From the NCBI RefSeq assembly GCF_025965085.1, contig NZ_JAOPXP010000037.1:1-43120 (forward strand): 43,120 bases of DNA, read 5' to 3'. A program made the translations under genes and the position numbers. Positions 5,932 to 29,088 of the stretch are shown here, in pieces; the first letter of the stretch is position 1, and every line of letters begins with the position of its first letter. Origin of the DNA: Marmoricola sp. GTDB lineage: Bacteria > Actinomycetota > Actinomycetes > Propionibacteriales > Nocardioidaceae. A model generated the notes under the pieces. The model had not been told where the DNA came from. It worked only from the letters and a program-made list of their open reading frames with translations, and did no database searches.

Positions 5932-6420
5932 TCAGTCGAGGCCGAGGTCCTTGCGCAGCTTGGCGACGTGTCCGGCGGCCTTGACGTTGTACTGCGCCAG
6001 TGAGACCTTTCCGTCCTCGTCGACGACGATCGTGGAGCGGATCACGCCCTGCACGACCTTCCCGTACAGCTTCTTCTCGCCGAAGGCGCCGTAGGAGGTC
6101 ATCACCGACCTGTCCTCGTCGGCGGCGAGCGTGATCGAGAGGGCGTCGCGCTCGCGGAACTTCGCCAGCTTGGCGGGCTTGTCGGGGGAGATGCCGACGA
6201 CCTCGTAGCCCTCTCCCCGCAGCGACTCGAGCGAGTCGGTGAAGTCGCAGGCCTGCGTGGTGCAGCCCGGAGTCATCGCCGCCGGGTAGAAGTAGACGAT
6301 CACCCTGCGGCCCCGCAGGCCGGACAGGGAGACCTCGCCGCCGGTGTCGGTCGGAAGGGTGAAGTCAGGCGCGTTGTCGCCGGGGGAGAGGCGGCTGGGC
6401 GCCGGCTGGGTGTCGGTCAT
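5932..6420 (-). CDS. bcp: Thioredoxin-dependent peroxiredoxin, Bcp/PrxQ type
   Basis: Reduces hydrogen peroxide and organic hydroperoxides using thioredoxin. The 162-residue product has the thioredoxin-fold motif YFYPAAMTPGCTTQACDF with peroxidatic Cys53 and resolving Cys58 five residues on, the atypical 2-Cys BCP arrangement. The frame is open far upstream, but the ATG at 6420 begins at the family's normal N-terminus. It is divergent from the nickel/cobalt importer, and the shared 64-bp region holds a candidate Nur box, so both directions could be affected by that regulator. Confidence 0.95.
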   Translation of the reverse strand: MTDTQPAPSRLSPGDNAPDFTLPTDTGGEVSLSGLRGRRVIVYFYPAAMTPGCTTQACDFTDSLESLRGEGYEVVGISPDKPAKLAKFRERDALSITLAADEDRSVMTSYGAFGEKKLYGKVVQGVIRSTIVVDEDGKVSLAQYNVKAAGHVAKLRKDLGLD

Positions 6421-6450
6421 GGTGTGGCTCCTGTTCCATGGGGCAAGTAG

Positions 6451-6467
6451 TTGCGAACAACTTGCAA
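6451..6467. promoter_or_regulatory. Candidate Nur (nickel-responsive Fur family) box
   Basis: The sequence TTGCGA-ACAAC-TTGCAA matches the described Streptomyces Nur pattern TTGCAA-N5-TTGCAA with one changed base. It lies 17 bp upstream of the cbiM start and 30 bp upstream of bcp. In this family, nickel-bound Nur represses nickel-uptake transporters, which would fit the operon it precedes. No nur gene is in the window. Confidence 0.6.
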
Positions 6468-6484
6468 TAACGTATCGTGGCGCC

Positions 6485-7198
6485 ATGCACGTTCCCGACG
6501 GCTTCCTCGACGCGCCCACGTCCATCGCGACCGGCGCCGTCGCCGCCGGTGGGCTGGCCCTCGCCCTGCGGGGAGCGCGCCGGGAACTCGACGACCGTAC
6601 CGCGCCGATGGCAGGGCTCGTCGCGACGTTCGTCTTCGCCGGGCAGATGATGAACTTCCCGGTCGGGGCCGGGACCAGCGGCCACCTGCTCGGGGGCGCC
6701 ATGGCCGCGGTGCTGGCGGGCCCGTGGACCGCGATGCTCTGCATCAGCACCGTCCTGCTGGTCCAGGCCCTCTTCATGGCCGACGGCGGCATCACCGCGC
6801 TGGGGACCAACATCACCCTGATGGGGCTGGTCGGCGTCGGTGTCGGCTGGCTCGTCTTCCGGGCCGTCCGTGCCGTGCTGCCGGACAGGCTCGGGTCGGT
6901 CGCCCCGGCCGCAGCGGTCGGAGCGCTGCTGAGCGTGCCCGTGGCAGCCGCGGTGTTCTCGCTGCTGTTCGCGGTGGGCGGGACCGCTCCCGTCTCCTCG
7001 GAGAAGGTCTTCGTGGCGATGGTGTCCTGGCACGCCGTCATCGGTGTCGGCGAGGCGTTGATCACCTTCCTCGTCGTCGCCTCCGTGGTCGGCGTACGCC
7101 CTGACCTCGTGTACGGCGCGCGGTCGGCGCTGCGCGCCCGTGCCCTCGAGATCAGGGGCCCGGCGCCCGCAGCCATTCCCGCAGCGGAGACCCCATGA
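6485..7198 (+). CDS. cbiM: ECF-type Co/Ni transporter, CbiM/NikM substrate subunit
   Basis: The substrate-specific membrane component of a cobalt or nickel energy-coupling-factor importer. The 237-residue protein opens with MHVPDGFL, whose N-terminal Met-His is the metal-binding end in CbiM/NikM; this fixes the ATG at 6485. Family segments AGQMMNFPVGAGTSGHLLGG and ALFMADGGITALGTN are present. It overlaps the PDGLE gene in an ATGA junction. The upstream Nur-like box favours nickel over cobalt, but sequence alone does not settle this. Confidence 0.94.
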   Translation: MHVPDGFLDAPTSIATGAVAAGGLALALRGARRELDDRTAPMAGLVATFVFAGQMMNFPVGAGTSGHLLGGAMAAVLAGPWTAMLCISTVLLVQALFMADGGITALGTNITLMGLVGVGVGWLVFRAVRAVLPDRLGSVAPAAAVGALLSVPVAAAVFSLLFAVGGTAPVSSEKVFVAMVSWHAVIGVGEALITFLVVASVVGVRPDLVYGARSALRARALEIRGPAPAAIPAAETP

Positions 7199-7566
7199 GC
7201 ACGGCGGTCAGGCTCAGCAGCACGCGCAGGTTCTTCGCGATCTTCCTGCTCAGTGCCCTCCTGGTCGCCGGGGTCGGCAGCTACTACGCGAGCACCCATC
7301 CCGACGGGCTGAACTTCGTCGCGCACAGGGCCGGGTTCGGTGACGAGGCGAAGGCCTCACCGACCTCCGACAGTCCGTTCGCCGGCTACTCCACCAAGGG
7401 CATCGGCAACCAGCGGCTCAGCGGCGGCGTCGCCGGCGTCGCCGGATGCCTGCTGGTCCTGGGCATCGCGGGCGGACTCTTCCGGGTGCTGCGACGCCGG
7501 GAGCCGGGGTCCGCGAACGCCGGCGCCGGTCCGGCGCACGGCCCTCCCACGACCTCGGGCCTCTAG
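7195..7566 (+). CDS. PDGLE domain protein (CbiN/NikN-like accessory subunit)
   Basis: A 123-residue protein with two membrane segments (roughly residues 12-30 and 75-97) flanking an extracytoplasmic loop. The loop contains the family motif STHPDGLNFVAHRAGF and ends SPFAGYSTKG. Such small subunits assist CbiM/NikM in metal loading. It starts inside the end of cbiM (ATGA) and is followed 3 bp later by cbiQ. The Gly/Ala/Pro-rich C-terminal tail is unremarkable. Confidence 0.85.
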   Translation: MSTAVRLSSTRRFFAIFLLSALLVAGVGSYYASTHPDGLNFVAHRAGFGDEAKASPTSDSPFAGYSTKGIGNQRLSGGVAGVAGCLLVLGIAGGLFRVLRRREPGSANAGAGPAHGPPTTSGL

Positions 7567-7569
7567 CCG

Positions 7570-8289
7570 GTGGGCGCCGGGCACGGCCATCGCCTGCACT
7601 ACCACGGGCACAGCGTCCTCCACCGCGCTCCGGCGCACCTGAAGCTCGTCACGCTGGTGACGTTCATGCTCGTCGTCGTGTCCACCCCCCGCGGCTGGTT
7701 CCCTGTCTTCGCGGGCTACCTGCTGCTCCTGCTCGGGCTGGTGGCGCTGAGCAGGGTGCCGTTCGGCTACATCGGCAAGCGGATGCTGGTCGAGACGCCG
7801 TTCCTGCTGTTCGCCGTGCTCGTCCCGTTCATCGCCGCCGGCCCGCGCGTCGTGGTGCTCGGGCTGTCGGTCTCCGAGCCGGGACTGCTGGCGGCATGGG
7901 GTCTGGTCGCGAAGGGCTCCCTCGGGGTGCTCGCCTCGCTGACGATGGCAGCGACCACCGATCCCCAGGACGTGCTCACCGGACTCCGCCGGCTGCGGAT
8001 GCCGGACCTGATCGTGCAGATCATGGGCTTCATGCTGCGCTACCTCGACGTGGTGTCGGCCGAGATGGGCCGGATGATGACGGCCATGAGGTCACGGGGG
8101 TGCGACCCCAGGTCGCCACGGCACTGGCCGGTCCTGGCGCGGTCGCTGGGGGCGCTGTTCATCCGCTCCTACGAGCGTGGCGAGCGGGTGCACCTGGCCA
8201 TGCTGGCGCGCGGGTACGACGGCACCCTTCCGGCCTCCTCCCCGCGGGTGGCCAGCGGTGCCCGTGTCGGTCAGGGGGCGCACCGATGA
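7570..8289 (+). CDS. cbiQ: ECF transporter transmembrane subunit CbiQ
   Basis: A 239-residue membrane subunit that couples ATP hydrolysis to metal uptake. The C-terminal half carries the CbiQ signatures: GLRRLRMPDLIVQIMGFMLRY and the two coupling motifs AMRSRG and AMLARGYDG, which contact the ATPase. The start is the GTG at 7570. The N-terminus is histidine-rich (GHGHRLHYHGHS, six His in about 15 residues), suggesting metal handling. It overlaps cbiO by ATGA. Confidence 0.93.
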   Translation: MGAGHGHRLHYHGHSVLHRAPAHLKLVTLVTFMLVVVSTPRGWFPVFAGYLLLLLGLVALSRVPFGYIGKRMLVETPFLLFAVLVPFIAAGPRVVVLGLSVSEPGLLAAWGLVAKGSLGVLASLTMAATTDPQDVLTGLRRLRMPDLIVQIMGFMLRYLDVVSAEMGRMMTAMRSRGCDPRSPRHWPVLARSLGALFIRSYERGERVHLAMLARGYDGTLPASSPRVASGARVGQGAHR

Positions 8290-9050
8290 CGGTCCCCGTC
8301 CTCGACGTGCGCGGACTGGCCCACGCCTACCCCGACGGCAACCAGGCGCTGTTCGGGGTGGACCTGCACGTCCACGAGGGGGAGCGGGTCGCCCTGCTCG
8401 GTCCCAACGGTGCCGGGAAGACCACGCTGGTGCTGCACCTCAACGGCATCCTGACCGCCGGTGCGGGCACCGTCGCGGTCTCCGGGATGCCGGTGGAGAA
8501 GGCCAACCTCAAGGAGATCCGCCGCCGCGTCGGCATCGTCTTCCAGGACCCCGACGACCAGCTGTTCATGGCCACCGTGCGCCAGGACGTGGCGTTCGGC
8601 CCCGCGAACCAGGGCCTGCGCGGCGAGGAGCTCGACGCCCGGGTGATGGCGGCGCTGGATCAGGTCGGGATGGGGGAGTACGCCGACCGCCCGCCGCACC
8701 ACCTCTCCTTCGGCCAGCGGCGTCGGGTGGCCGTGGCGACGGTGCTGGTGATGGAGCCCGAGATCCTGGTGCTCGACGAGCCCTCCTCCAACCTCGACCC
8801 GGCGTCGCGGCGCGAGCTGGCCGACATCCTGCGCTCGCTCGACGTGACCGTGCTGATGGTCACCCACGACCTGCCCTACGCCCTCGAGCTGTGCCCCCGG
8901 TCCGTCGTACTCCACGACGGGCAGGTGGTGGCCGACGGCAGGACCTACGACCTGCTCACGGACCCCGAGCTGATGCGCCGCCACCGCCTGGAGCTGCCGT
9001 TCGGGTTCGATCCGGCGACCATCCCCGGCATTGGTAACCTTCCAGCCTGA
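8286..9050 (+). CDS. cbiO: ECF transporter ATP-binding subunit CbiO
   Basis: A 254-residue ATPase powering the importer. It has Walker A GPNGAGKTT (residues 39-47), Q-loop VFQDPDDQLF (typical of ECF ATPases), signature LSFGQRRR, Walker B ILVLDEPSSNLDP and an H-loop VTHDL. The start ATG overlaps the cbiQ stop (ATGA), fixing the reading. It closes the four-gene operon cbiM-PDGLE-cbiQ-cbiO. Confidence 0.95.
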   Translation: MTVPVLDVRGLAHAYPDGNQALFGVDLHVHEGERVALLGPNGAGKTTLVLHLNGILTAGAGTVAVSGMPVEKANLKEIRRRVGIVFQDPDDQLFMATVRQDVAFGPANQGLRGEELDARVMAALDQVGMGEYADRPPHHLSFGQRRRVAVATVLVMEPEILVLDEPSSNLDPASRRELADILRSLDVTVLMVTHDLPYALELCPRSVVLHDGQVVADGRTYDLLTDPELMRRHRLELPFGFDPATIPGIGNLPA

Positions 9051-19186: not shown

Positions 19187-19735
19187 ATGGGCGACGACGC
19201 CGTCGAGCAGTCATTCCCGCATGGTCCGGCCCCGACGACCGCGGCCGTCGACCGACTCCTGATGTGGGCGAGGGCGGGGCTGGTGCGCGTGGAGCCCGAG
19301 GACCTGGCGGCCGAGCTCGCCGCCGGCGCGCTGGTGGTCGACATCCGGCCCGTCGAGCAGCGCATGCGTGACGGCGTACTCCCGGGGGCGGTGGTGGTGG
19401 ACCGCAACATGCTGGAGTGGCGGCTCGATCCCACGTCTCCGCATCGGTGGCCCGAGGTCACCGGACCGGATCACCGGGTCATCGTGGTGTGCGACGAAGG
19501 CTTCAGCTCGAGCCTGGCGGCCGCCACCCTGAGTCGGCTGGGGCTGGACCGGGCCACCGACCTGGTGGGCGGGTACCAGGGGTGGCGAGCGGCGTCCGGG
19601 GGAGCTGGTGCTGCCGGCGGAGGTGGGCTATCCCCGCACGCGGCGGCGGTCGTCGGGGAGCCTGACGGTGCGACCGGTGCGGTCCAGATGGGCCAGCAGG
19701 GGCAGCACGACGCGGCGGCTCGAGCCGAGCAGTGA
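19187..19735 (+). CDS. Rhodanese-like domain protein
   Basis: A 182-residue protein. The single rhodanese domain spans about residues 35-140, with LVVDIRPVEQRMRDGVLPGAVV and the active-site loop VVCDEGFSSSLAA, whose Cys would carry a persulfide or perselenide. YQGWRAA closes the domain. The final 40 residues are low-complexity and are read from the strand opposite the selB 3' end; the two coding regions overlap by 108 bp. Its place beside the Sec genes suggests selenium or sulfur delivery, which is inference. Confidence 0.75.
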   Translation: MGDDAVEQSFPHGPAPTTAAVDRLLMWARAGLVRVEPEDLAAELAAGALVVDIRPVEQRMRDGVLPGAVVVDRNMLEWRLDPTSPHRWPEVTGPDHRVIVVCDEGFSSSLAAATLSRLGLDRATDLVGGYQGWRAASGGAGAAGGGGLSPHAAAVVGEPDGATGAVQMGQQGQHDAAARAEQ

Positions 19736-21361
19736 ACGTGCCTGGCTCACGGTGAACGGCTGGGGAAGGCCGGCGAGCAGGTGGGCGGCGTGGTCGTCCG
19801 CGTGGGGAAGCAGGAGGATTCCGTCGGCGAGGCGCAGGAGGTGTCCGGCGTGGGCGAGAGCGCCCAGGTCGGCGCGGTTCAGCCCGAGCTCGTCCAGGCG
19901 ATCGGCGTCGGGGGCGGCGAAGGGCCGGGCGAGGAGGTCGTCGCGGATCGCATCGAGCGCGCGTCGCAGCCGCGTCGGAAGGTCGGCTTCGACCGGTTCC
20001 ACCATTCCGCGATCGACCCGCAACGGCGGCCTGACGAGCGCCGCCACCAGCGCCTCGTCGGGCAGCCCCAGCACCCTGGCGACCTGCGCGACGGGGACCC
20101 CGGGCCGTTGCGGGGTGCCTGCCTCCTGCACGAACCGGGCGAGCTCGGCACTGAGGGCGCGGGCGTGGGCGCCCGAGACCAGCCATGGTCCGACCTGAAC
20201 CGCGTCGGGCGGCACCGCACCCGTTGTCCCGAGGCGGCGCAGCAGTGCCCGTTGGACGAGACCGCGGCGTTCCAGCTCCGCGCCCAGGGAGCCATCGGCC
20301 CGCTCGAGCTCGACGGCACGTGACGCTGCTGCGCCCCGCCGACGGAGCCGGGGTGGCGCGGGGTCGAGCACCTGCACGCCCCAGAGCCGGCGGCTGCCGG
20401 GGTCGCGGAGCACTGCCCGGTCCCCGATCCGCAGTGGCAGCGAGCGCTCGAGTGCCAGCCGGGCGAAGTCCCGGGAGAGGGGACGGGCGTGCACGGTGAG
20501 GGCGGCCGCGCCGACGTGCAGGACGGGTCGCTCGGGCAGCCGGGCCTCACCGATCAGACGTACGTCGACCACGGCGCAGGCTTCGAACGCTCCCTGAGTG
20601 ACGAGGACGCTGCCGCGTTCGAGCTCGTCGGGTGCCTTGCCGGCCAGGGCGAGCGCGACCCTGGACACGCCCACGGCGGAGGTCACCGGTCGTCCGAGGC
20701 ACTCGATGCCACGCACCCGGACCCGGCGATCGTCCGAGAGCAGGGTGTCACCGCAGCGGATGGTTCCCGCCGGAAGCGTCCCGGTCACGACGGTCCCGGT
20801 GCCCCGGACGTGGAACCGACGATCGACCCACAGCCGCACGTCGGCTTCCGGATCCGCCGGTGGGACGGCTCGCAGCAGGGCGGCGAGCTCGGTGCGCAGG
20901 GTGTCCAGCCCCTCGCCGGTTCGGCCGCTCACCACCACCGCGCGTGCTGCGTGCAGCGAGGTCCGCGCCAACTCGGCGCGCGCACGGGCGAGAGCCGGCA
21001 GGGGATCGGCCAGGTCGCTGCGCGTGACCACGAGCAGGGCGTGCTCGACACCGAGGCCGTCGAGGGCGGCCAGGTGCTCGGCCGCCTGCGGCATCCAGGG
21101 GTCGTCGGCCGCGACCACCAGCATCACGGCGGGCACGGGACCCACTCCTGCAAGGGTGGTGGTGATGAACCGTTCGTGGCCCGGGACGTCGACGAACGCC
21201 ACCTCGCCGAGGCCGGGGAGCCGGGTCCAGCAGTAGCCGAGCTGGATCGAGAGCCCGCGTCGGCGTTCCTCCTCCAGACGGTCGGGATCCTGGCCGGTGA
21301 GCTCCCGGACGAGGGTGGACTTCCCGTGGTCCACGTGACCAGCGGTGGCGACGACGTACAT
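19628..21361 (-). CDS. selB: Selenocysteine-specific elongation factor SelB
   Basis: A 577-residue GTPase that brings selenocysteyl-tRNA to a UGA followed by a SECIS hairpin. The N-terminal GTPase shows G1 GHVDHGKS (residues 8-15), G3 DVPG (58-61) and a TRSD motif (113-116) at the position of the usual NKxD. EF-Tu-like barrels follow, and the C-terminal part has winged-helix-like repeats (RDDLLARPFAAP, FTVSQARSLLGSSRRVVLPLL) that bind SECIS RNA in the family. The start ATG is one base after the selA stop (TGA-G-ATG), so the two are coupled. The 3' end overlaps the rhodanese gene. Confidence 0.96.
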   Translation of the reverse strand: MYVVATAGHVDHGKSTLVRELTGQDPDRLEEERRRGLSIQLGYCWTRLPGLGEVAFVDVPGHERFITTTLAGVGPVPAVMLVVAADDPWMPQAAEHLAALDGLGVEHALLVVTRSDLADPLPALARARAELARTSLHAARAVVVSGRTGEGLDTLRTELAALLRAVPPADPEADVRLWVDRRFHVRGTGTVVTGTLPAGTIRCGDTLLSDDRRVRVRGIECLGRPVTSAVGVSRVALALAGKAPDELERGSVLVTQGAFEACAVVDVRLIGEARLPERPVLHVGAAALTVHARPLSRDFARLALERSLPLRIGDRAVLRDPGSRRLWGVQVLDPAPPRLRRRGAAASRAVELERADGSLGAELERRGLVQRALLRRLGTTGAVPPDAVQVGPWLVSGAHARALSAELARFVQEAGTPQRPGVPVAQVARVLGLPDEALVAALVRPPLRVDRGMVEPVEADLPTRLRRALDAIRDDLLARPFAAPDADRLDELGLNRADLGALAHAGHLLRLADGILLLPHADDHAAHLLAGLPQPFTVSQARSLLGSSRRVVLPLLAHLDRTGRTVRLPDDRRRVRG

Positions 21362-21362
21362 C

Positions 21363-22676
21363 TCAGGGCGCCTGGGTGCCGGCGTCCGCGAGAGCGCGGC
21401 GGATCGCGTCGAGCAGCGCCTGGTCCTGCTCCGGGGGGACCGCGACGAGGTCGAGCAGGAGGCGGCCGTCGACGAGGTGACCGACCACGGCGGGATCTCC
21501 GCGGCGCAGTGGTCCGGCGAGGTGCGCAGGCAGAGCCACCGCGGCGCTGTCCAAGGAGACTCCGGGCGCTCCTCCACCACCCACTGCCGCGTGCGAGGAG
21601 ACTGCCTCCGCGACGCCGCCGCCGAGCGCCGTGGCCAGGTGACGGGCTCGCGCCAACAGGTCGTCCGGGGTCGCCCGCAGGAAACCGGTGACTGGGGGCA
21701 CCGGACCCGCCAGCGTGGCCTCGAGCGCGGCCAGCGTCAGCTTGTCCACCCGCACGGCCCTGGCCAACGGGTGCCGTCGCAGGCGTCGCACGAGCTCCGC
21801 CTCGCCGAGCAGGAGTCCGCACTGGGGTCCGCCCAGCAGCTTGTCGCCGGAGGCGGTGACCAGGTCGGCGCCCATGCGAAGGTACGTCGAGGCGTCGGGC
21901 TCCTCCGTGAGCCGACGATGGGGTGTCAGCAGGCCCGACCCGATGTCGGCCACCAGGGGCACGTCGAGGGTCGCCAGGGCGGACACGGGGACCGAGGAGG
22001 TGAACCCCTCCACCCGGAAGTTCGACGGGTGCACCTTGAGCACGAAGGCCGTCTGCTCCCCGAGCGCCGCGGCGTAGTCGGAGAGCCGGACCCTGTTCGT
22101 GGTCCCCACCTCCCGTAGCCGAGCGCCCACCGACTCGAGGAGCTCGGGGATGCGGAAGCCGTCCCCGATCTCGACCATCTCCCCACGCGCGACCACGACT
22201 TCGCGGCCGCCGGAGGCCAGGGCGCAGGCCGCCAGGGCCAGCGCGGCCGCACCGTTGTTCACCACGTGGACGTCGCCGGCGTCAGGTACGGCGGCCGCCA
22301 GCGCGGCACGCGCGCCTGCACCGCGCGGGCCACGGCGGCCGGTCGCGAGATCGAGCTCGACGTCGGTGACACCGGCTGCGAGGACCACGGCGTCGACGGC
22401 CGCCTGCGAGAGGGGAGCACGCCCCAGATTGGTGTGTACGACGACACCGGTGCCGTTCACCACCGTGCGCAGCGTCGTCGCGGACCGCGGGAGGGTGTCC
22501 CGTACGACGCCGACGACGTCCTCCGGGCTGACGCTGCCCCTGCGGCAGGCCTCGAGCACGGCGACGACGGTCTGCTTCACGGTCGACCGGCCCAGGCGCT
22601 CGACCTCGCCGGCGAGCTGCGGATCGGCCAGCACCACGTCGGTGCGCGGCGTACGACGTCGGCGGTCATCGTCCAC
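21363..22676 (-). CDS. selA: L-seryl-tRNA(Sec) selenium transferase
   Basis: The PLP enzyme that converts seryl-tRNA(Sec) to selenocysteyl-tRNA(Sec) using selenophosphate. The 437-residue product has the family core INxTG/NLGRAPL (here VNGTGVVVHTNLGRAPLS), a VNNGAAALALA loop, and the PLP lysine Lys279 in SGDKLLGGPQCG. The frame is open further upstream through the tRNA gene, but a GTG at 22676 has AGGAGG 4 bp before it and is the evident start. It lies 34 bp after tRNA-Sec on the same strand. Confidence 0.97.
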   Translation of the reverse strand: MDDDRRRRTPRTDVVLADPQLAGEVERLGRSTVKQTVVAVLEACRRGSVSPEDVVGVVRDTLPRSATTLRTVVNGTGVVVHTNLGRAPLSQAAVDAVVLAAGVTDVELDLATGRRGPRGAGARAALAAAVPDAGDVHVVNNGAAALALAACALASGGREVVVARGEMVEIGDGFRIPELLESVGARLREVGTTNRVRLSDYAAALGEQTAFVLKVHPSNFRVEGFTSSVPVSALATLDVPLVADIGSGLLTPHRRLTEEPDASTYLRMGADLVTASGDKLLGGPQCGLLLGEAELVRRLRRHPLARAVRVDKLTLAALEATLAGPVPPVTGFLRATPDDLLARARHLATALGGGVAEAVSSHAAVGGGGAPGVSLDSAAVALPAHLAGPLRRGDPAVVGHLVDGRLLLDLVAVPPEQDQALLDAIRRALADAGTQAP

Positions 22677-22710
22677 GGAGCCTCCTCGAGGAGGTCGAAC
22701 CCTCACCTGG

Positions 22711-22802
22711 CGGAGGCGGACGGGAATCGAACCCGCCTGACCGAGGTGCTCGGCCACTACGGTTTTGAGGACCGCGCCCGTCACCAGACGAGGAACGCCT
22801 CC
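22711..22802 (-). tRNA. selC: tRNA-Sec(UCA)
   Basis: A 92-nt class II tRNA followed by an encoded CCA (22708-22710). The acceptor starts GGAGGCG and ends CGCCTCC. The D stem has six pairs (CTCGTC with GACGGG) around a four-base loop, typical of bacterial tRNA-Sec. The anticodon loop CCTCAAA gives TCA, which reads UGA, and the variable arm is a 7-bp hairpin (GGCCGAG with CTCGGTC). The T loop is TTCGATT and the discriminator is G. The eighth acceptor pair appears non-canonical (T and C). Confidence 0.96.
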
Positions 22803-22831
22803 ATGGCGCACTCTAGACGCAGGTCCGTGAC

Positions 22832-22848
22832 AGATCGCGGAGATCGCG
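22832..22848. repeat. Tandem AGATCGCG repeat in the tRNA-Sec/fdhA intergenic region
   Basis: AGATCGCG occurs twice with a 9-bp period in the 113-bp region between the divergent tRNA-Sec and formate dehydrogenase genes. It could be a regulator site or chance; nothing else supports it. Confidence 0.3.
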
Positions 22849-22915
22849 TTTACGGTGGAGAGATCTGGAAACCTCACGGCAACCGGGCGTGGTGAGCCGA
22901 AGGGTGGGGCCGAGC

Positions 22916-25900
22916 ATGGGTGCGAAGAGCTTCGTCAGCTCCTGGTCGCTGCTGCGCCAGCTGCGCGGTCGGGACCTGCTCGGACGCGGCTCGGCGGCGA
23001 TGTCGGCCCGCAGCGCCCACCTGGAGCCCCGCACGTCCACCGCCGACAACGTGGTCAGCTCGGTCTGCCCCTTCTGCGCTGTCGGCTGTGCCCAGAAGGT
23101 CTTCGTGAAGGACGGACAGGTCACCCAGATCGAAGGGGACCCGGCGAGCCCGATCTCCCGGGGCCGGCTGTGCCCCAAGGGCAGCGCCAGCAAGCAGCTG
23201 GTGACCTCGCCGAGCCGGGTGACCAAGGTTCGCTACCGGCGCCCGCACGGCACCGAGTGGGAGGAGCTCGACCTCGCCACCGCCATGGACATGATCGCCG
23301 ACCGGGTGATCGAGACCCGCAAGCAGTTCTGGGAGTGGGAGGCCGACGGAAGGCGCACCCGCCGTACCCTCGGCATCTCCAGCCTCGGAGGAGCGACCCT
23401 CGACAACGAGGAGAACTACCTCATGAAGAAGCTGTACACGGCCATGGGAGCGATCCAGATCGAGAACCAGGCTCGTATTTGACACTCCTCGACGGTTCCC
23501 GGTCTGGGGACCTCGTTCGGCCGCGGTGGGGCCACCACCTTCCTGCAGGACCTGAAGAACAGTGACTGCATCCTGATCGAGGGCTCCAACATGGCCGAGG
23601 CGCACCCGGTGGGCTTCCAGTGGGTGATGGAGGCCAAGCGGCGGGGGGCAACGGTGATCCACGTGGACCCGCGCTTCACCCGCACGTCCGCTGTGGCCGA
23701 CCTGCACGTCCCGATCCGCGCCGGTTCCGACATCGCCTTCCTCGGCGGCCTGGTGAACCACGTGCTGAGCAACGACCTCGACTTCCGGGAGTACGTCGTG
23801 GCCTACACGAATGCCGCGAGCGTCATCGACTCCGGTTTCCAGGACACCGAGGACCTCGACGGGCTGTTCTCCGGCTTCGACCCCGAGATGCGGCTCTACG
23901 ACCCGCTCACCTGGCGCTACGAGCCTCCCGAGAACCCCAACGAGGAGGAGCAGGAGCGGATCGGGGAGTTCGCGCGGGCCGAGCGTGACACCGGCGAGCA
24001 GAAGCGCTCGCACCAGGCGGCGCAGTCGGAGAGCCACGGCTCCGGCGGCGCCCCGGTCAGCTGGAAGGGCCGTCGCGACGAGACCCTGCGGCACCCGCGC
24101 TGCGTCTTCCAGATCCTCAAGAGGCACTTCGCCCGCTACACCCCCGAGATGGTCCAGGCGGTCTGCGGGATCGAACCGGACCAGTTCCGGGAGGTCGCGG
24201 ACTCGCTGACCCGCAACAGCGGCGCGGACCGCACCACCGCGTTCGCCTACGCCGTCGGCTGGACCCAGCACGCGACCGGTGCCCAGATGATCCGCACGGC
24301 TTCCATCCTGCAGCTGCTCCTCGGCAACATCGGTCGCCCGGGCGGCGGCATCATGGCGCTGCGCGGACATGCCAGCATCCAGGGCTCGACCGACATCCCG
24401 ACGCTGTTCAACATCCTCCCCGGCTACCTGCCCATGCCGCACTCGGAGCAGCACCAGAGTCTGGACGAGTGGGTGCGCGACGACGAGGGCAAGGCCGGCT
24501 TCTGGGGCAACGTGCGGTCGTACTCGGTCAGCCTGCTCAAGGCCTACTGGGGCGATGCCGCCACCCCCGAGAACGACTTCTGCTTCGACTACCTGCCGCG
24601 GGTGAGCGGGGACCACTCCAACTACACGACCGTGAAGGCCCAGATCGAAGGTAGGTGCAAGGGCTACTTCCTGGTGGGGGAGAACCCCGCCGTCGGCTCC
24701 AGCAACGGCAAGATGCAGCGGCTGGGGATGGCCAACCTCGACTGGCTGGTCGTGCGCGACCTGCAGATGATCGAGTCGGCCACGTTCTGGAAGGACGGAC
24801 CGGAGATCGAGACCGGCGAGCTGGTCACCGAGGACATCGGCACCGAGGTGTTCTTCCTGCCGGCCGCCTCCCACGTGGAGAAGGCGGGCTCGTTCACCCA
24901 GACCCAGCGCATGCTGCAGTGGCGCGACAAGGCGGTCGACCCGCCGGGTGACTGCCGCAGCGAGCTGGACTTCTACTACGAGCTCGGCCAGCTGATCCGC
25001 GAGAAGCTCGCGGGCTCCACCGACGAGATGGACCGTCCGCTGCTCGACCTGGCCTGGGAGTACCCGGTCGACGAGCACGGCGACGTGGACGGGCAGGCGG
25101 TGCTGCGCGAGATCAACGGCACGGGTCCGGACGGGACAGCGCTCTCGGCGTACACGCAGCTCGCGGCCGACGGCTCGACGTCCTGCGGCTGCTGGATCTA
25201 CTGCGGGGTGTACGCCGACGAGGTGAACCAGGCCCGGCGCCGCAAGCCGCACTGGGAGCAGGACGACGTGGCGCTCGAGTGGGGCTGGGTGTGGCCGGCC
25301 AACCGGCGCATCCTCTACAACCGGGCCTCGGCGGCACCGGACGGCTCGCCCTGGAGCGAGCGCAAGAAGCACGTCTGGTGGGACTCCGAGCAGGGGAAGT
25401 GGGTCGGCGCCGACGTGCCCGACTTCGTGCCCGACCGACCGCCCGACCACGTGCCGGAGGACGGCGCGAAGGGACCCGACGCGATCGGCGGCACGGACCC
25501 GTTCATCATGCAGACCGACGGGAAGGCGTGGCTGTTCGCGCCCATCGGGTTGGCCGACGGGCCGATGCCGGTGCACTACGAACCGCCGGAGTCGCCGGTG
25601 CACAACTCGCTCTACGCGCAGCAGAACAACCCGGCGCAGCGCAGGGTCGAGCACCCCACCAACCCGATCAACCCGAGCTTCGGCGAGACCTTCCCCTACG
25701 TCTTCACCACCTACCGGCTGACCGAGCACCACACCTCCGGCGCCATGAGCCGGACGCTGCCCTACCTGACCGAGCTGCAGCCGGAGCCGTTCTGCGAGGT
25801 CTCGCCGAGGCTGGCCCGGGAGCGTGGGCTCGAGCATCTCGGCTGGGCCACCATCGTCACCGCCCGCACGGCGATCGAGGCACGGGTGCTGGTGACCGAC

Positions 25901-26173
25901 CGGCTGCGCTCGCTGCGGCTCGGCGACCGGTTCGTGGAGCAGGTGGGGCTGCCCTACCACTGGGGGGTCAACGGGATCACCCGCGGAGACTCGCCGAACG
26001 ACCTGGTGAACGTGACGATGGACCCCAACGTCTACATCCAGGAGAAGGTCGGCACCTGCGACATCCAGCCGGGGCGCCGTCCGCGAGGGCCGGCCCTGAC
26101 GGCGTACGTCGATGACTACCGACGGCGCGCCGGCGTACACATCCACCCAGATGAAGGAGGTGCCGGCCGGTGA
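22916..26173 (+). CDS. fdhA: Selenocysteine-containing formate dehydrogenase, alpha subunit
   Basis: A 1085-residue molybdopterin oxidoreductase that oxidises formate to CO2. Read straight through it is two ORFs in one frame, split by a TGA at 23480-23482; reading TGA as Sec189 gives IENQARI-Sec-HSSTVPGLGTSFGRGG, the family's active-site context. The N-terminus has 4Fe-4S ligands Cys51, Cys54, Cys58 and Cys86 (CPFCAVGC and LCPKG). The ATG at 22916 follows AGGGTGG by about 6 bp; GTG at 22889 is an alternative. No twin-arginine signal is visible, unlike E. coli FdnG. The start of fdhB overlaps its stop. A charged insert sits near residues 340-390. Confidence 0.95.
23480..23520 (+). promoter_or_regulatory. 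Sec codon (TGA) and bacterial SECIS hairpin
   Basis: The in-frame TGA at 23480-23482 is followed, 11 bases later, by a perfect 7-bp stem (GGTTCCC at 23494-23500 with GGGGACC at 23506-23512, one G-T pair) closing a GGTCT loop (23501-23505). The E. coli fdhF element has the same GGTCT in its loop at nearly the same distance (about 17-18 bases after the TGA). This is the signal SelB would bind. Confidence 0.92.
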
Positions 26174-27108
26174 CGAACTCCCTGTGGGGCCGGTTGGACG
26201 ACGTCAGTGGCGACGCGGGCTACGAGGAGCACCCGCCGCGGATGGGCTTCTTCACCGACACCTCGGTCTGCATCGGCTGCAAGGCGTGCGAGGTGGCGTG
26301 CAAGGAGTGGAACGAGCTTCCTGAGGACGGCTACCAGCTCACCGGCATGTCCTACGACAACACCCAGCAGCTCGGGGCGAGCACGTGGCGCCACGTCGCC
26401 TTCGTCGAGAAGCCGCTCCATCCGACGACAACCGACCTCGGGCTTCCCGGGATGGGCCCACCCGGCTGGGACACGCACGAGAGCGGGCTGCCGCAGGCGG
26501 CGCCTTCCGGAGAGGACCAGGCCACGGAGTCCGGTGAAGGTGGGATTCGCTGGTTGATGTCCTCCGACGTCTGCAAGCACTGCACGCACGCCGCGTGCCT
26601 CGACGTGTGCCCCACCGGTTCGCTGTTCCGGACCGAGTTCGGCACGGTCGTCGTCCAGCCCGACATCTGCAACGGCTGCGGTTACTGCGTGCCGGCCTGC
26701 CCCTACGGCGTCATCGACCTGCGCAAGGAGGACGGCCGGGCATTCAAGTGCACGCTGTGCTACGACCGGCTCAAGGACGGTCAGACGCCGGCCTGTGCGC
26801 AGGCGTGCCCCACGCAGTCCATCCAGTACGGCGAGGTCAGCGAGCTGCGGCAGCGAGCCGACCTCAGACTCGCCGAGCTCCTCGACAAGGGCGTCGACGT
26901 GGCCCGCCTCTACGGACGCGACCCCGACGACGGGGTGGGCGGGGACGGTGCGTTCTTCCTGCTCCTCGACGAGCCCGAGGTCTACGGGCTGCCGCCCGAC
27001 CCGGTCGTGACGACCCGCGACCTCGTGACGATCTGGAAGCACGTCGGGGCCGCCGCGGTGACGCTGGCCGGACTCGGCGTCGCCTCCTTCTTCGGGAGAC
27101 GCTCGTGA
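26170..27108 (+). CDS. fdhB: Formate dehydrogenase iron-sulfur (beta) subunit
   Basis: A 312-residue electron-transfer subunit with four 4Fe-4S binding groups: CIGCKACEVACKEW (about residue 37), CKHCTHAACLDVCP, CNGCGYCVPACPYG, and CTLCYDR with CAQACP. A C-terminal hydrophobic stretch (AAAVTLAGLGVASFF) may anchor it to the membrane, as in FdnH-like subunits. The GTG at 26170 overlaps the fdhA stop (GTGA) and has AAGGAGG about 9 bp upstream. An acidic Gly/Pro-rich insert (residues about 85-125) separates the first and second groups. Confidence 0.95.
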   Translation: MTNSLWGRLDDVSGDAGYEEHPPRMGFFTDTSVCIGCKACEVACKEWNELPEDGYQLTGMSYDNTQQLGASTWRHVAFVEKPLHPTTTDLGLPGMGPPGWDTHESGLPQAAPSGEDQATESGEGGIRWLMSSDVCKHCTHAACLDVCPTGSLFRTEFGTVVVQPDICNGCGYCVPACPYGVIDLRKEDGRAFKCTLCYDRLKDGQTPACAQACPTQSIQYGEVSELRQRADLRLAELLDKGVDVARLYGRDPDDGVGGDGAFFLLLDEPEVYGLPPDPVVTTRDLVTIWKHVGAAAVTLAGLGVASFFGRRS

Positions 27109-28082
27109 GTGAGCGCAGCATGGTCCCTGAGGCGGAGTTCGAGTCCTACTACGGGCGCCAGATCGTCAAGACCCCCACGTGGAAGAGCCCGGACGTCCCC
27201 CTCTACCTCTTCTTCGGCGGGATGGCGGGCGCCTCCGCGCTGCTCGCGGAGGGTGCGGCCCTCTCCGGCGACCTGCAGCTGGAGCGCGTGGCGCGGACGG
27301 TGGCGGCCTCGGGTGCCGGCGTGGGAACCGTCTTCCTGATCCACGACCTGGGGCGTCCGGAGCGCTTCCTGCACATGCTGCGGGTGCTGAAGGTCACCTC
27401 GCCGCTGTCGGTGGGTTCCTACGTCCTGGCTCCCTTCAGCGCCCTGGCGTCGGCCGCCGCCGCCGCCCAGCTCACCGGCCGGCTGCCGCGCATCGGAAGG
27501 CTCGCTGGTGTGGGGGCAGCGGTCTTCGGGCCGTTGCTGACCACCTACACCGCGGCGTTGTTCTCCAACACCGCGGTGCCCGCCTGGCACGAGGCCTACC
27601 GCGAGCTGCCCTTCGTCTTCGCAGGTTCGGGAGCCGCCGCAGCGGGTGGCGCCGCGATGCTGCTGACCGCGCCGGCCCAGAGCGCCCCCGCGCGACGCAT
27701 GGCGCTGGCCGGTGCGGCGTTGGAGCTCTCGGCGGCCGAGCTCCTGAAACGGCGGTTGGGGATGCTGGCGGAGCCCTATGAGCGGGGACGTCCAGGCCGG
27801 TTGATGCGCACGGCCTCGCGCCTGACGGCCTTGGCGGCCGTCGCCTCGCTGTTCGCCGGCCGTTCCCGCGCGGTCTCCATGATGTGCGGGGCGACGTACC
27901 TGACGGCCTCGACCCTGACTCGGTTCGGGGTGTTCGAAGCGGGTCTTGCCTCGGCTCGGGACCCGAAGTACACCGTCGTCCCCCAGCGCGAGCGGATTGC
28001 CCGACGCCAGGCAGCGGGCCGCGCTGCCGATGAGGGGAAGGGGTCGTCCGCGACTCACACGGCGACGGCGCCCGGGTCGTAG
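27105..28082 (+). CDS. NrfD-family membrane subunit of formate dehydrogenase
   Basis: A 325-residue membrane protein of the NrfD/polysulfide-reductase family, with about eight hydrophobic segments. The start SYYGRQIVKTPTWKSPDVPLYLFFGGMAGAS and IHDLGRPERFLHMLRVLKVTSPLSVGSY match the family. It probably passes electrons to the quinone pool in place of the haem-b subunit FdnI. The GTG at 27105 overlaps the fdhB stop (GTGA). It is 10 bp before selD. Confidence 0.9.
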   Translation: MSERSMVPEAEFESYYGRQIVKTPTWKSPDVPLYLFFGGMAGASALLAEGAALSGDLQLERVARTVAASGAGVGTVFLIHDLGRPERFLHMLRVLKVTSPLSVGSYVLAPFSALASAAAAAQLTGRLPRIGRLAGVGAAVFGPLLTTYTAALFSNTAVPAWHEAYRELPFVFAGSGAAAAGGAAMLLTAPAQSAPARRMALAGAALELSAAELLKRRLGMLAEPYERGRPGRLMRTASRLTALAAVASLFAGRSRAVSMMCGATYLTASTLTRFGVFEAGLASARDPKYTVVPQRERIARRQAAGRAADEGKGSSATHTATAPGS

Positions 28083-28092
28083 ATTGGGCGCC

Positions 28093-29088
28093 ATGGCCTC
28101 GGTGACGTCGTCCATCCGGCTGACGCAGTACGCCGCCGGAGGCGGCTGTGCGTGCAAGGTCCCGCCCGGTGAGCTCGAGGCGGTCCTGGCCGGGTTGCCC
28201 CTGGGGCGCGCGCACGACGATCTCCTCGTCGGTCTCGACGACGGTGACGACGGGGCGGTGGTGCGCATCGACGGCGACCGTGCGTTGGTGATGACCGCGG
28301 ACTTCTTCACCCCTGTGGTCGACTCGGCGTACGACTGGGGGCGCATCGCAGCGGCCAACGCGCTCTCGGACGTCTACGCGATGGGCGGCGAACCGTTGGT
28401 GGCCGTCAACCTGCTGGCCTGGCCCCGCGACCGGATCCCGTTCGAGCTGGCCGCCGAGGTGCTTCGCGGTGGCGCCGAGATCTGCGCGGAGGCGGCCTGC
28501 CACCTCGCCGGCGGGCACAGCATCGATGACCGGGAGCCGAAGTACGGACTGGCCGTCACCGGCCTGGCGAGCCCGGATCGGCTGCTGCGCAACGACGCTG
28601 GGTTCGCGGGTATGCCGCTGACCCTCACCAAGCCGCTCGGTCTCGGCGTGCTGAACAACCGGCACAAGACGACAGGTGAGGTGTTCGAGGACGCCGTCAG
28701 GACCATGACCACGCTCAACCGCGACGCGTCGCAAGCCGCCCTGGGGGCAGGCCTCACCTGCGCGACCGACGTCACCGGCTTCGGCCTGCTGGGACACCTG
28801 ATGAAGCTGTGCCGTGCCAGCGGTGTGAGCGCGGTCATCGAGGCCGACGCAGTTCCCTACCTCGAAGCGACCCGGGCCTCCCTCGAGGCCGGTTTCGTGC
28901 CGGGAGGCAGTCGGCGCAACCTGGAGTGGGTGCGACCCCACCTCTCCTCCCGCGTCTCCGACGACGAGCTGCTGCTCCTGGCCGACGCACAGACCTCGGG
29001 AGGCCTGCTCGTTGCCGGCGAGCTGCCCGGGCATCCGGTCATCGGGGAGCTCGTCGCGGGCGGTGGTCTCCTGCTCTCGGTGCGCTGA
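28093..29088 (+). CDS. selD: Selenide, water dikinase (selenophosphate synthetase)
   Basis: Makes selenophosphate from selenide and ATP, the selenium donor for SelA. The 331-residue product has SIRLTQYAAGGGCACKVPP with Cys19 and Lys22, equivalent to E. coli Cys17 and Lys20, so it is a Cys form and not itself a selenoprotein. Later segments ADFFTPVVDSAYDWGRIAAANALSDVYAMGG and LAGGHSIDD carry the ATP/metal residues. It follows the formate dehydrogenase genes by 10 bp and is probably in the same transcript. Confidence 0.97.
   Translation: MASVTSSIRLTQYAAGGGCACKVPPGELEAVLAGLPLGRAHDDLLVGLDDGDDGAVVRIDGDRALVMTADFFTPVVDSAYDWGRIAAANALSDVYAMGGEPLVAVNLLAWPRDRIPFELAAEVLRGGAEICAEAACHLAGGHSIDDREPKYGLAVTGLASPDRLLRNDAGFAGMPLTLTKPLGLGVLNNRHKTTGEVFEDAVRTMTTLNRDASQAALGAGLTCATDVTGFGLLGHLMKLCRASGVSAVIEADAVPYLEATRASLEAGFVPGGSRRNLEWVRPHLSSRVSDDELLLLADAQTSGGLLVAGELPGHPVIGELVAGGGLLLSVR

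Follow-up and report, generated by a model that had tools for sequence, protein, structure and literature searches.

The window analysed here, the whole stretch of 43,120 nucleotides of Marmoricola sp. DNA, contains the genes for an ECF-type importer on the plus strand. The first of these is cbiM (6485..7198), better described as nikM-like, which encodes the substrate-binding membrane subunit or S component (PF01891, 1.7e-55). It is followed by a small subunit with a PDGLE domain in a NikN-like position (7195..7566), for which PF13190 (6.5e-19) was the sole Pfam family, by cbiQ/nikQ encoding the ECF T component (7570..8289; PF02361, 1.3e-39; TIGR02454 above cut-off) and by cbiO/nikO encoding the ECF ATPase (8286..9050; PF00005, 4.9e-32; TIGR01166 above cut-off). 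The nearest solved chains for the CbiM protein were 4M58 (1.9e-22) and 4M5B (3.1e-21), while the cobalt protein CbiM 5X3X was matched with only 2.3e-6. The deposit 4M58 is labelled CbiM, and we take it to be the nickel protein NikM; proteins of the PDGLE type are presumably NikN. The Pfam scan gave no CbiN match for the small subunit, and NCBIfam returned weak matches to models named CbiN, all of them below cut-off. Riboswitches, including the B12 type, were not detected in the window at Rfam gathering scores. Elsewhere in the window, the translations point to a likely selenocysteine region (19628-29088) with SelB-like, SelA-like and SelD-like proteins, a formate dehydrogenase-like alpha subunit and an iron-sulfur subunit; Rfam places a tRNA-Sec at 22712-22802.

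Divergent from cbiM, bcp is encoded on the minus strand (5932..6420) and specifies a thioredoxin-dependent thiol peroxidase (PF00578, 1.8e-36; NF006960 above cut-off), with the Shine-Dalgarno sequence AGGAG at 6428..6432 on the same strand. Between the two genes lies a candidate Nur operator, TTGCGAACAACTTGCAA (6451..6467), an imperfect palindrome of the form TTGC-N9-GCAA without strand assignment, whose like is conserved before cbiM, NiCoT and sodF genes. The gap is 17 bp to the cbiM start codon (ATG at 6485) and 30 bp to that of bcp (ATG at 6420, minus strand), and these coordinates agree with the original prediction, in which a nickel-regulator box had been proposed at this site. The prediction had also put the box one base away from the published Nur pattern, and this is borne out by the printed consensus tTGCaa-N5-ttGCAA (PMC3919588), from which TTGCGAACAACTTGCAA deviates by a single mismatch in a lower-case position (a to g), leaving a G at box position 5. 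A second inverted repeat (10-bp) at 6443-6465 overlaps the box and is not kept in the upstream sequences of relatives L021-L023.

The strict palindrome TTGCRAN5TYGCAA occurs in a single copy in the 3.55-Mb source genome, a 243-contig assembly that is about 96% complete, and its reversed control has 0 copies. With a looser pattern, 2 matches were obtained in the window, which represent one site read on both strands, against 0.28 expected; this is modestly unusual. When up to two mismatches were allowed, the genome yielded 47 sites compared with 65 for the control pattern and thus no excess. In the search for more boxes that the prediction had suggested, the strict form proved unique, and looser matches were present without exceeding the control. 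Among the 19 of 47 two-mismatch sites that were scored, the best further candidate is a look-alike at C64:16983 (L405 1983-1999, G000:C64:16983; score 21.6), located some 80 bp in front of a gene for a sugar-type ABC binding protein. The frequency of looser matches in the genome would be compatible with a chance palindrome, but the window box reaches a profile score of 27.0 as opposed to a maximum of 14.7 among 1600 shuffled upstream sequences, and it is conserved across genera. Because of this conservation in relatives the box is considered to stand above chance, and a chance origin is given a negligible likelihood.

Four Fur-family proteins are encoded in the same genome. One of them (G000:C185) is a 95-aa fragment truncated by the contig end. 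Its best solved match is S. coelicolor Nur (3EYY, 2.8e-25; next 3.9e-16), and in the tree it falls within the Nur clade (support 96/85) and outside those of Zur and FurA/CatR, so that the Nur homologue called for by the prediction is present. We take the metal ligands of Nur to be His70, His72 and His126 in the Ni-site and His33, His86, His88 and His90 in the M-site. In the alignment, the fragment has His at 70, 72, 86, 88, 90 and 126, that is, 6 of the 7 expected ligands; position 33 lies beyond the contig end and is occupied by His in 16/16 Nur rows of the tree. The fragment adjoins a GCV_T/YgfZ-like protein, and Nur is described as co-located with YgfZ in S. coelicolor (PMC4531530). Of the other three Fur proteins, C182 clusters in the tree with 3MWM and 2O03, both Zur chains, and an apparent metal ABC ATPase and permease were read from the sequence upstream of it; C14 and C112 are FurA/CatR-like. 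The occurrence of two FurA/CatR-like proteins and the nature of bcp as a peroxide gene would allow for a FurA/CatR/PerR-type peroxide sensor as the binder of the box, with bcp as its true target. However, reading by eye revealed an element, CTTGACTNNTTCCAGA, ahead of the likely starts of C14 and C112 that is unlike the box. FurA/CatR was set aside as the box binder because its own genes are preceded by this different element. Furthermore, across genomes the box is associated with nickel importer genes and sodF, and it is retained before cbiM in loci that lack bcp, which makes a peroxide sensor a highly improbable explanation.

The distribution of the box was analysed in 98 genomes (own genome included), of which 69 belong to families f1 and f4 and 16 to f3. 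CbiM relatives were found at E <= 0.001 in 64/98 genomes and close ones in 54 (f1, f3 and f4). Distant CbiM matches with E above 1e-60, mainly in family f2, were not counted as cbiM, nor were weak NicO matches (E above 1e-12) counted as NiCoT; two weak CbiM places were kept in the list used for box assignment, and neither took a box. Within f1 and f4, close cbiM genes are present in 38/69 genomes, and 32 of these 38 have an upstream site scoring at least 15, a proportion that is partly circular as 21 of the boxes were used to build the profile, from which f3 loci were excluded. Summed over the 98 genomes, 58 strict boxes were counted against 15 for the control pattern. A total of 41 precede cbiM (24), NiCoT nickel transporter genes (14) or sodF (3), and 17 lie elsewhere; 12 of the 24 cbiM boxes belong to f3, where Nur is absent. 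Strict boxes at L388-L390 (three f3 genomes) and at L202 and L203 were taken as chance occurrences because they lie inside likely reading frames.

Within the genus of the window, represented by 24 genomes including its own, 8 have cbiM only, 15 have NiCoT only, 1 has both and 0 have neither. Three of the 16 NiCoT genomes have no strict box before the NiCoT gene, and the sites found there score 27.9 in G006, 26.0 in G020 and only 8.3 in G013. The same operator before two unrelated importer types in one genus would mean that the job of the regulator was kept while the transporter was exchanged. A separate set comprised the best 80 of 255 relatives, which may share genomes with the 98-genome set. 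Its closest listed member is Marmoricola sp. Leaf446 (82%), and it consists mostly of Nocardioides with a few Janibacter, Knoellia, Pedococcus and others. A site of at least 15 precedes cbiM in 56/80 of these loci and is lacking in 24/80, 10 of which have bcp.

Three further arrangements were observed among the boxed loci. In G053 (f1, genus g9; L158 3006-4584), bcp is followed by the box-like TTGCGAGCGACTCGCAA and then by a gene for a ZnuA-like binding protein that replaces cbiM, possibly a third type of nickel importer under Nur. In G002 (L140 1435-4790), a strict box is flanked on one side by genes for a FecCD-type ABC permease and its binding protein and on the other by a MetE-like gene; the FecCD-type system is a possible importer of nickel or a nickel chelate. 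In G066 (L386, L211; G066:C1:1691012-1693124), sodF and a NiCoT gene come in this order on the same strand downstream of a single box, perhaps two Nur-type targets in one operon.

The box was compared with the occurrence of Nur, called at E <= 1e-20, and of nickel superoxide dismutase (Ni-SOD). Kinship of the genomes was ignored in all counts; as the genomes are related, the p values given here are too good and serve as a guide only. Nur and Ni-SOD occur together in 50 of the 98 genomes, Nur only in 4, Ni-SOD only in 3 and neither in 41. In f1 and f4, a cbiM box was found in 30/32 genomes with Nur versus 2/6 without (p 0.003). The two boxed genomes in which Nur was not found are fragmented assemblies, namely G023 (540 contigs, 93% complete) and G031 (150 contigs, 82%). 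Conversely, G059 and G073 possess Nur and lack a cbiM site of at least 15 (6.0 in G073). The Nur protein of G059 (L252) is degenerate and has lost His at 70, 72 and 126; Ni-SOD was not found in this genome, and both cbiM and sodF are unboxed; the nickel switch may have been lost naturally in G059.

The sodF genes provide an independent test, since they were not used in building the profile. They were scored in 30 fetched loci as well as in G013, G015, G059 and G081. Among the genomes with both Nur and sodF, 5/6 have a sodF box, with scores of 24.0 (G013), 29.3 (G015), 17.0 (G066), 21.1 (G073) and 20.1 (G081, where sodF was read as two pieces); the exception is again G059 (0.3). For sodF from genomes without Nur, 0/28 fetched loci have the box, and nothing above 8.4 was seen across the fetched stretch. 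In 12 more Nur-less genomes with sodF, the strict whole-genome search, the only one applied to them, gave no match at sodF; the second sodF copies of G030 and G052 were likewise covered by the strict search only. No box was detected near sodN in the 5 kb searched (best score -3.7, in L205), in agreement with published work in which sodN is controlled by way of a small RNA (PMC3919588).

The original prediction had concluded from the box that the importer takes nickel, and the distribution of metal enzymes supports this view. Every one of the 32 f1 and f4 genomes with a boxed cbiM has Ni-SOD, and the cobalt chelatase CobN is present in 9 of them and was not found in 23. Over all 69 f1 and f4 genomes, an importer (cbiM or NiCoT) and Ni-SOD occur together in 49, the importer only in 7, Ni-SOD only in 4 and neither in 9 (p 9e-5). 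The same comparison with CobN gave 22 genomes with both, 34 with the importer only, 5 with CobN only and 8 with neither (p 1.0). In the own genome Ni-SOD and CobN are both present, while searches for Fe/Mn-SOD, urease and NiCoT gave no hit in this approximately 96% complete assembly. A cobalt importer controlled by a cobalt sensor and serving B12 would be in line with the CobN gene and with the family-library names, which designate cobalt transporter subunits. Against it stand the absence of detectable CobN from 23/32 boxed genomes that all have Ni-SOD, the independence of importer presence from CobN, the PDGLE subunit in place of CbiN and the boxes before sodF, and this reading is therefore regarded as very unlikely. 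As importer presence follows Ni-SOD and not CobN, nickel appears to be the better reading of the cargo, a view to which the interchange of cbiM and NiCoT downstream of this box, the sodF boxes and the type of small subunit also contribute. Because CobN is encoded in the own genome as well, cobalt could be carried as a side cargo.

A different situation was encountered in f3, where all 16 genomes have cbiM and CobN (16 each) and 11 have urease, with 0 for both Nur and Ni-SOD. The box before cbiM reads TTGCGATC-N2-GTCGCAA in 7/16 of these genomes and takes variant forms in the others; four of these variants end in GCAG. Each of six f3 genomes searched has a Fur-family protein that forms a clade with two g7 proteins (support 99/97), a grouping for which the tree tool warns of long branches meeting. 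The observation of this sister Nur-like clade and the shifted f3 box covers L201, the f3 loci L248, L251, L253, L255, L256 and L262, and the g7 loci L250 and L258. The f3 and g7 proteins carry His at 33, 70, 72, 81, 88 and 90, which preserves the majority of the metal-site histidines, and differ in the sequence of the recognition helix. In the g7 genome G029, cbiM is followed at a distance of about 2 kb by the Nur-like gene, which has the same orientation. The f3 Nur-like protein may be the one that reads the f3 box. The strict-type cbiM boxes of f3, which occur without Nur or Ni-SOD, and the 17/58 strict boxes elsewhere are points against a Nur operator.

The promoter anatomy was inspected with regard to both divergent genes. 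Directly after the box, the sequence TAACGTA reads as TAACGT in one direction and TACGTT in the other, and it would provide a putative -10 element for cbiM (6468..6473, plus strand), immediately 3' of the box, and an overlapping one for bcp (6469..6474, minus strand). The cbiM mRNA would then be nearly leaderless. No promoter matching the sigma-70 consensus was detected. On the cbiM strand, the form TANNNT follows the box in 36/56 boxed loci of the 80-locus set and in 15/33 of another set of 33 loci, from which f3 was left out. On the bcp strand of the 80-locus set, TANNNT is found in 27/49 loci with bcp versus 1/7 without (p 0.10), and the looser YANNNT in 41/49 versus 1/7 (p 0.0006). The corresponding values for the 33-locus set, 11/24 versus 1/9 for TANNNT (p 0.11) and 12/24 versus 2/9 for YANNNT (p 0.24), are not significant.

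These observations bear on the suggestion of the original prediction that bcp shares the control of cbiM. In this extension of the Nur operator, the two promoters would overlap on TAACGTA, one dimer would block both, and nickel shortage would raise importer and peroxiredoxin together. The gene bcp is divergent from cbiM in 59/80 loci of the best 80 of 255 relatives, and G053 keeps the bcp-box pair despite the ZnuA-like gene on the far side. In 12/49 loci with box and bcp in the 80-locus set, a single base separates the bcp Shine-Dalgarno sequence AAGGAG from the box, so that the bcp transcript would be expected to start within or beyond the operator and bound Nur would consequently block bcp too. 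However, this adjoining Shine-Dalgarno sequence occurs in 0/24 loci of the 33-locus set, and the contrast in -10 elements is significant solely for the looser form in the 80-locus set. Moreover, bcp accompanies only one of the strict boxes away from cbiM (1/20 loci fetched, that of G053) and none of the f3 cbiM loci (0/16). The promoter anatomy is therefore compatible with the suggestion, while the absence of bcp beside NiCoT-gene and f3 boxes leaves shared control a plausible option, with a likelihood that we place slightly short of even. Such control would constitute a testable link among nickel supply, Ni-SOD and peroxide removal.

Taken together, the coupling of the box with Nur and sodF, the Ni-SOD genes in 32/32 boxed genomes and the lack of detectable CobN in 23 of them argue that the box is very probably an operator for Nur, the nickel-sensing repressor of the Fur family, on a NikMNQO-type ECF importer. 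With ample nickel, dimers of Ni-Nur would occupy the palindrome beside the cbiM -10 element and the importer would be shut off; when nickel falls, apo-Nur would leave, and the importer would be made and Ni-SOD supplied. A more far-reaching proposal holds that one Nur dimer over both divergent promoters couples import with the peroxiredoxin, and that the f3/g7 regulator and the shifted box changed together. Under nickel starvation and with Ni-SOD failing, importer and peroxiredoxin would both be raised. This combined proposal is put forward tentatively and is rather doubtful as a whole.

A survey of 40 actinobacteria from 2009 lists, in the column CbiMNQO/NikMNQO/NikKMLQO of its Table 2, 0 nickel importers, 2 cobalt importers and 13 of unclear specificity, and the word Nur does not occur in its main text (PMC2667541). 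With 13 of 15 actinobacterial Cbi/NikMNQO importers left unclear in this survey, the conserved Nur box offers a route from sequence alone to the calling of nickel importers in the family of the window and its neighbours. No account of a Nur box upstream of an ECF importer was found among the open-licence papers searched, and an earlier prediction may exist. The importer resembles NikMNQO in having M, Q and O subunits and a separate small PDGLE subunit that is not CbiN by Pfam. Importers controlled by NikR, in which nickel represses import (PMC7055735), would follow the same logic of nickel repression, although NikR belongs to a different protein family. A further close parallel is the Nur regulon of S. 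coelicolor, where Nur represses sodF and nikABCDE (PMC7055735). Box spacing and core are alike, the regulator belongs to a common clade, has His at the six ligand positions that the fragment covers and likewise neighbours YgfZ, sodF is a predicted target in 5 relatives, and Ni-SOD acts as a nickel user. In contrast to S. coelicolor, where the target is the ABC importer nikABCDE, the target here would be an ECF importer, and the window box has a G at position 5 and is placed between divergent genes together with bcp.
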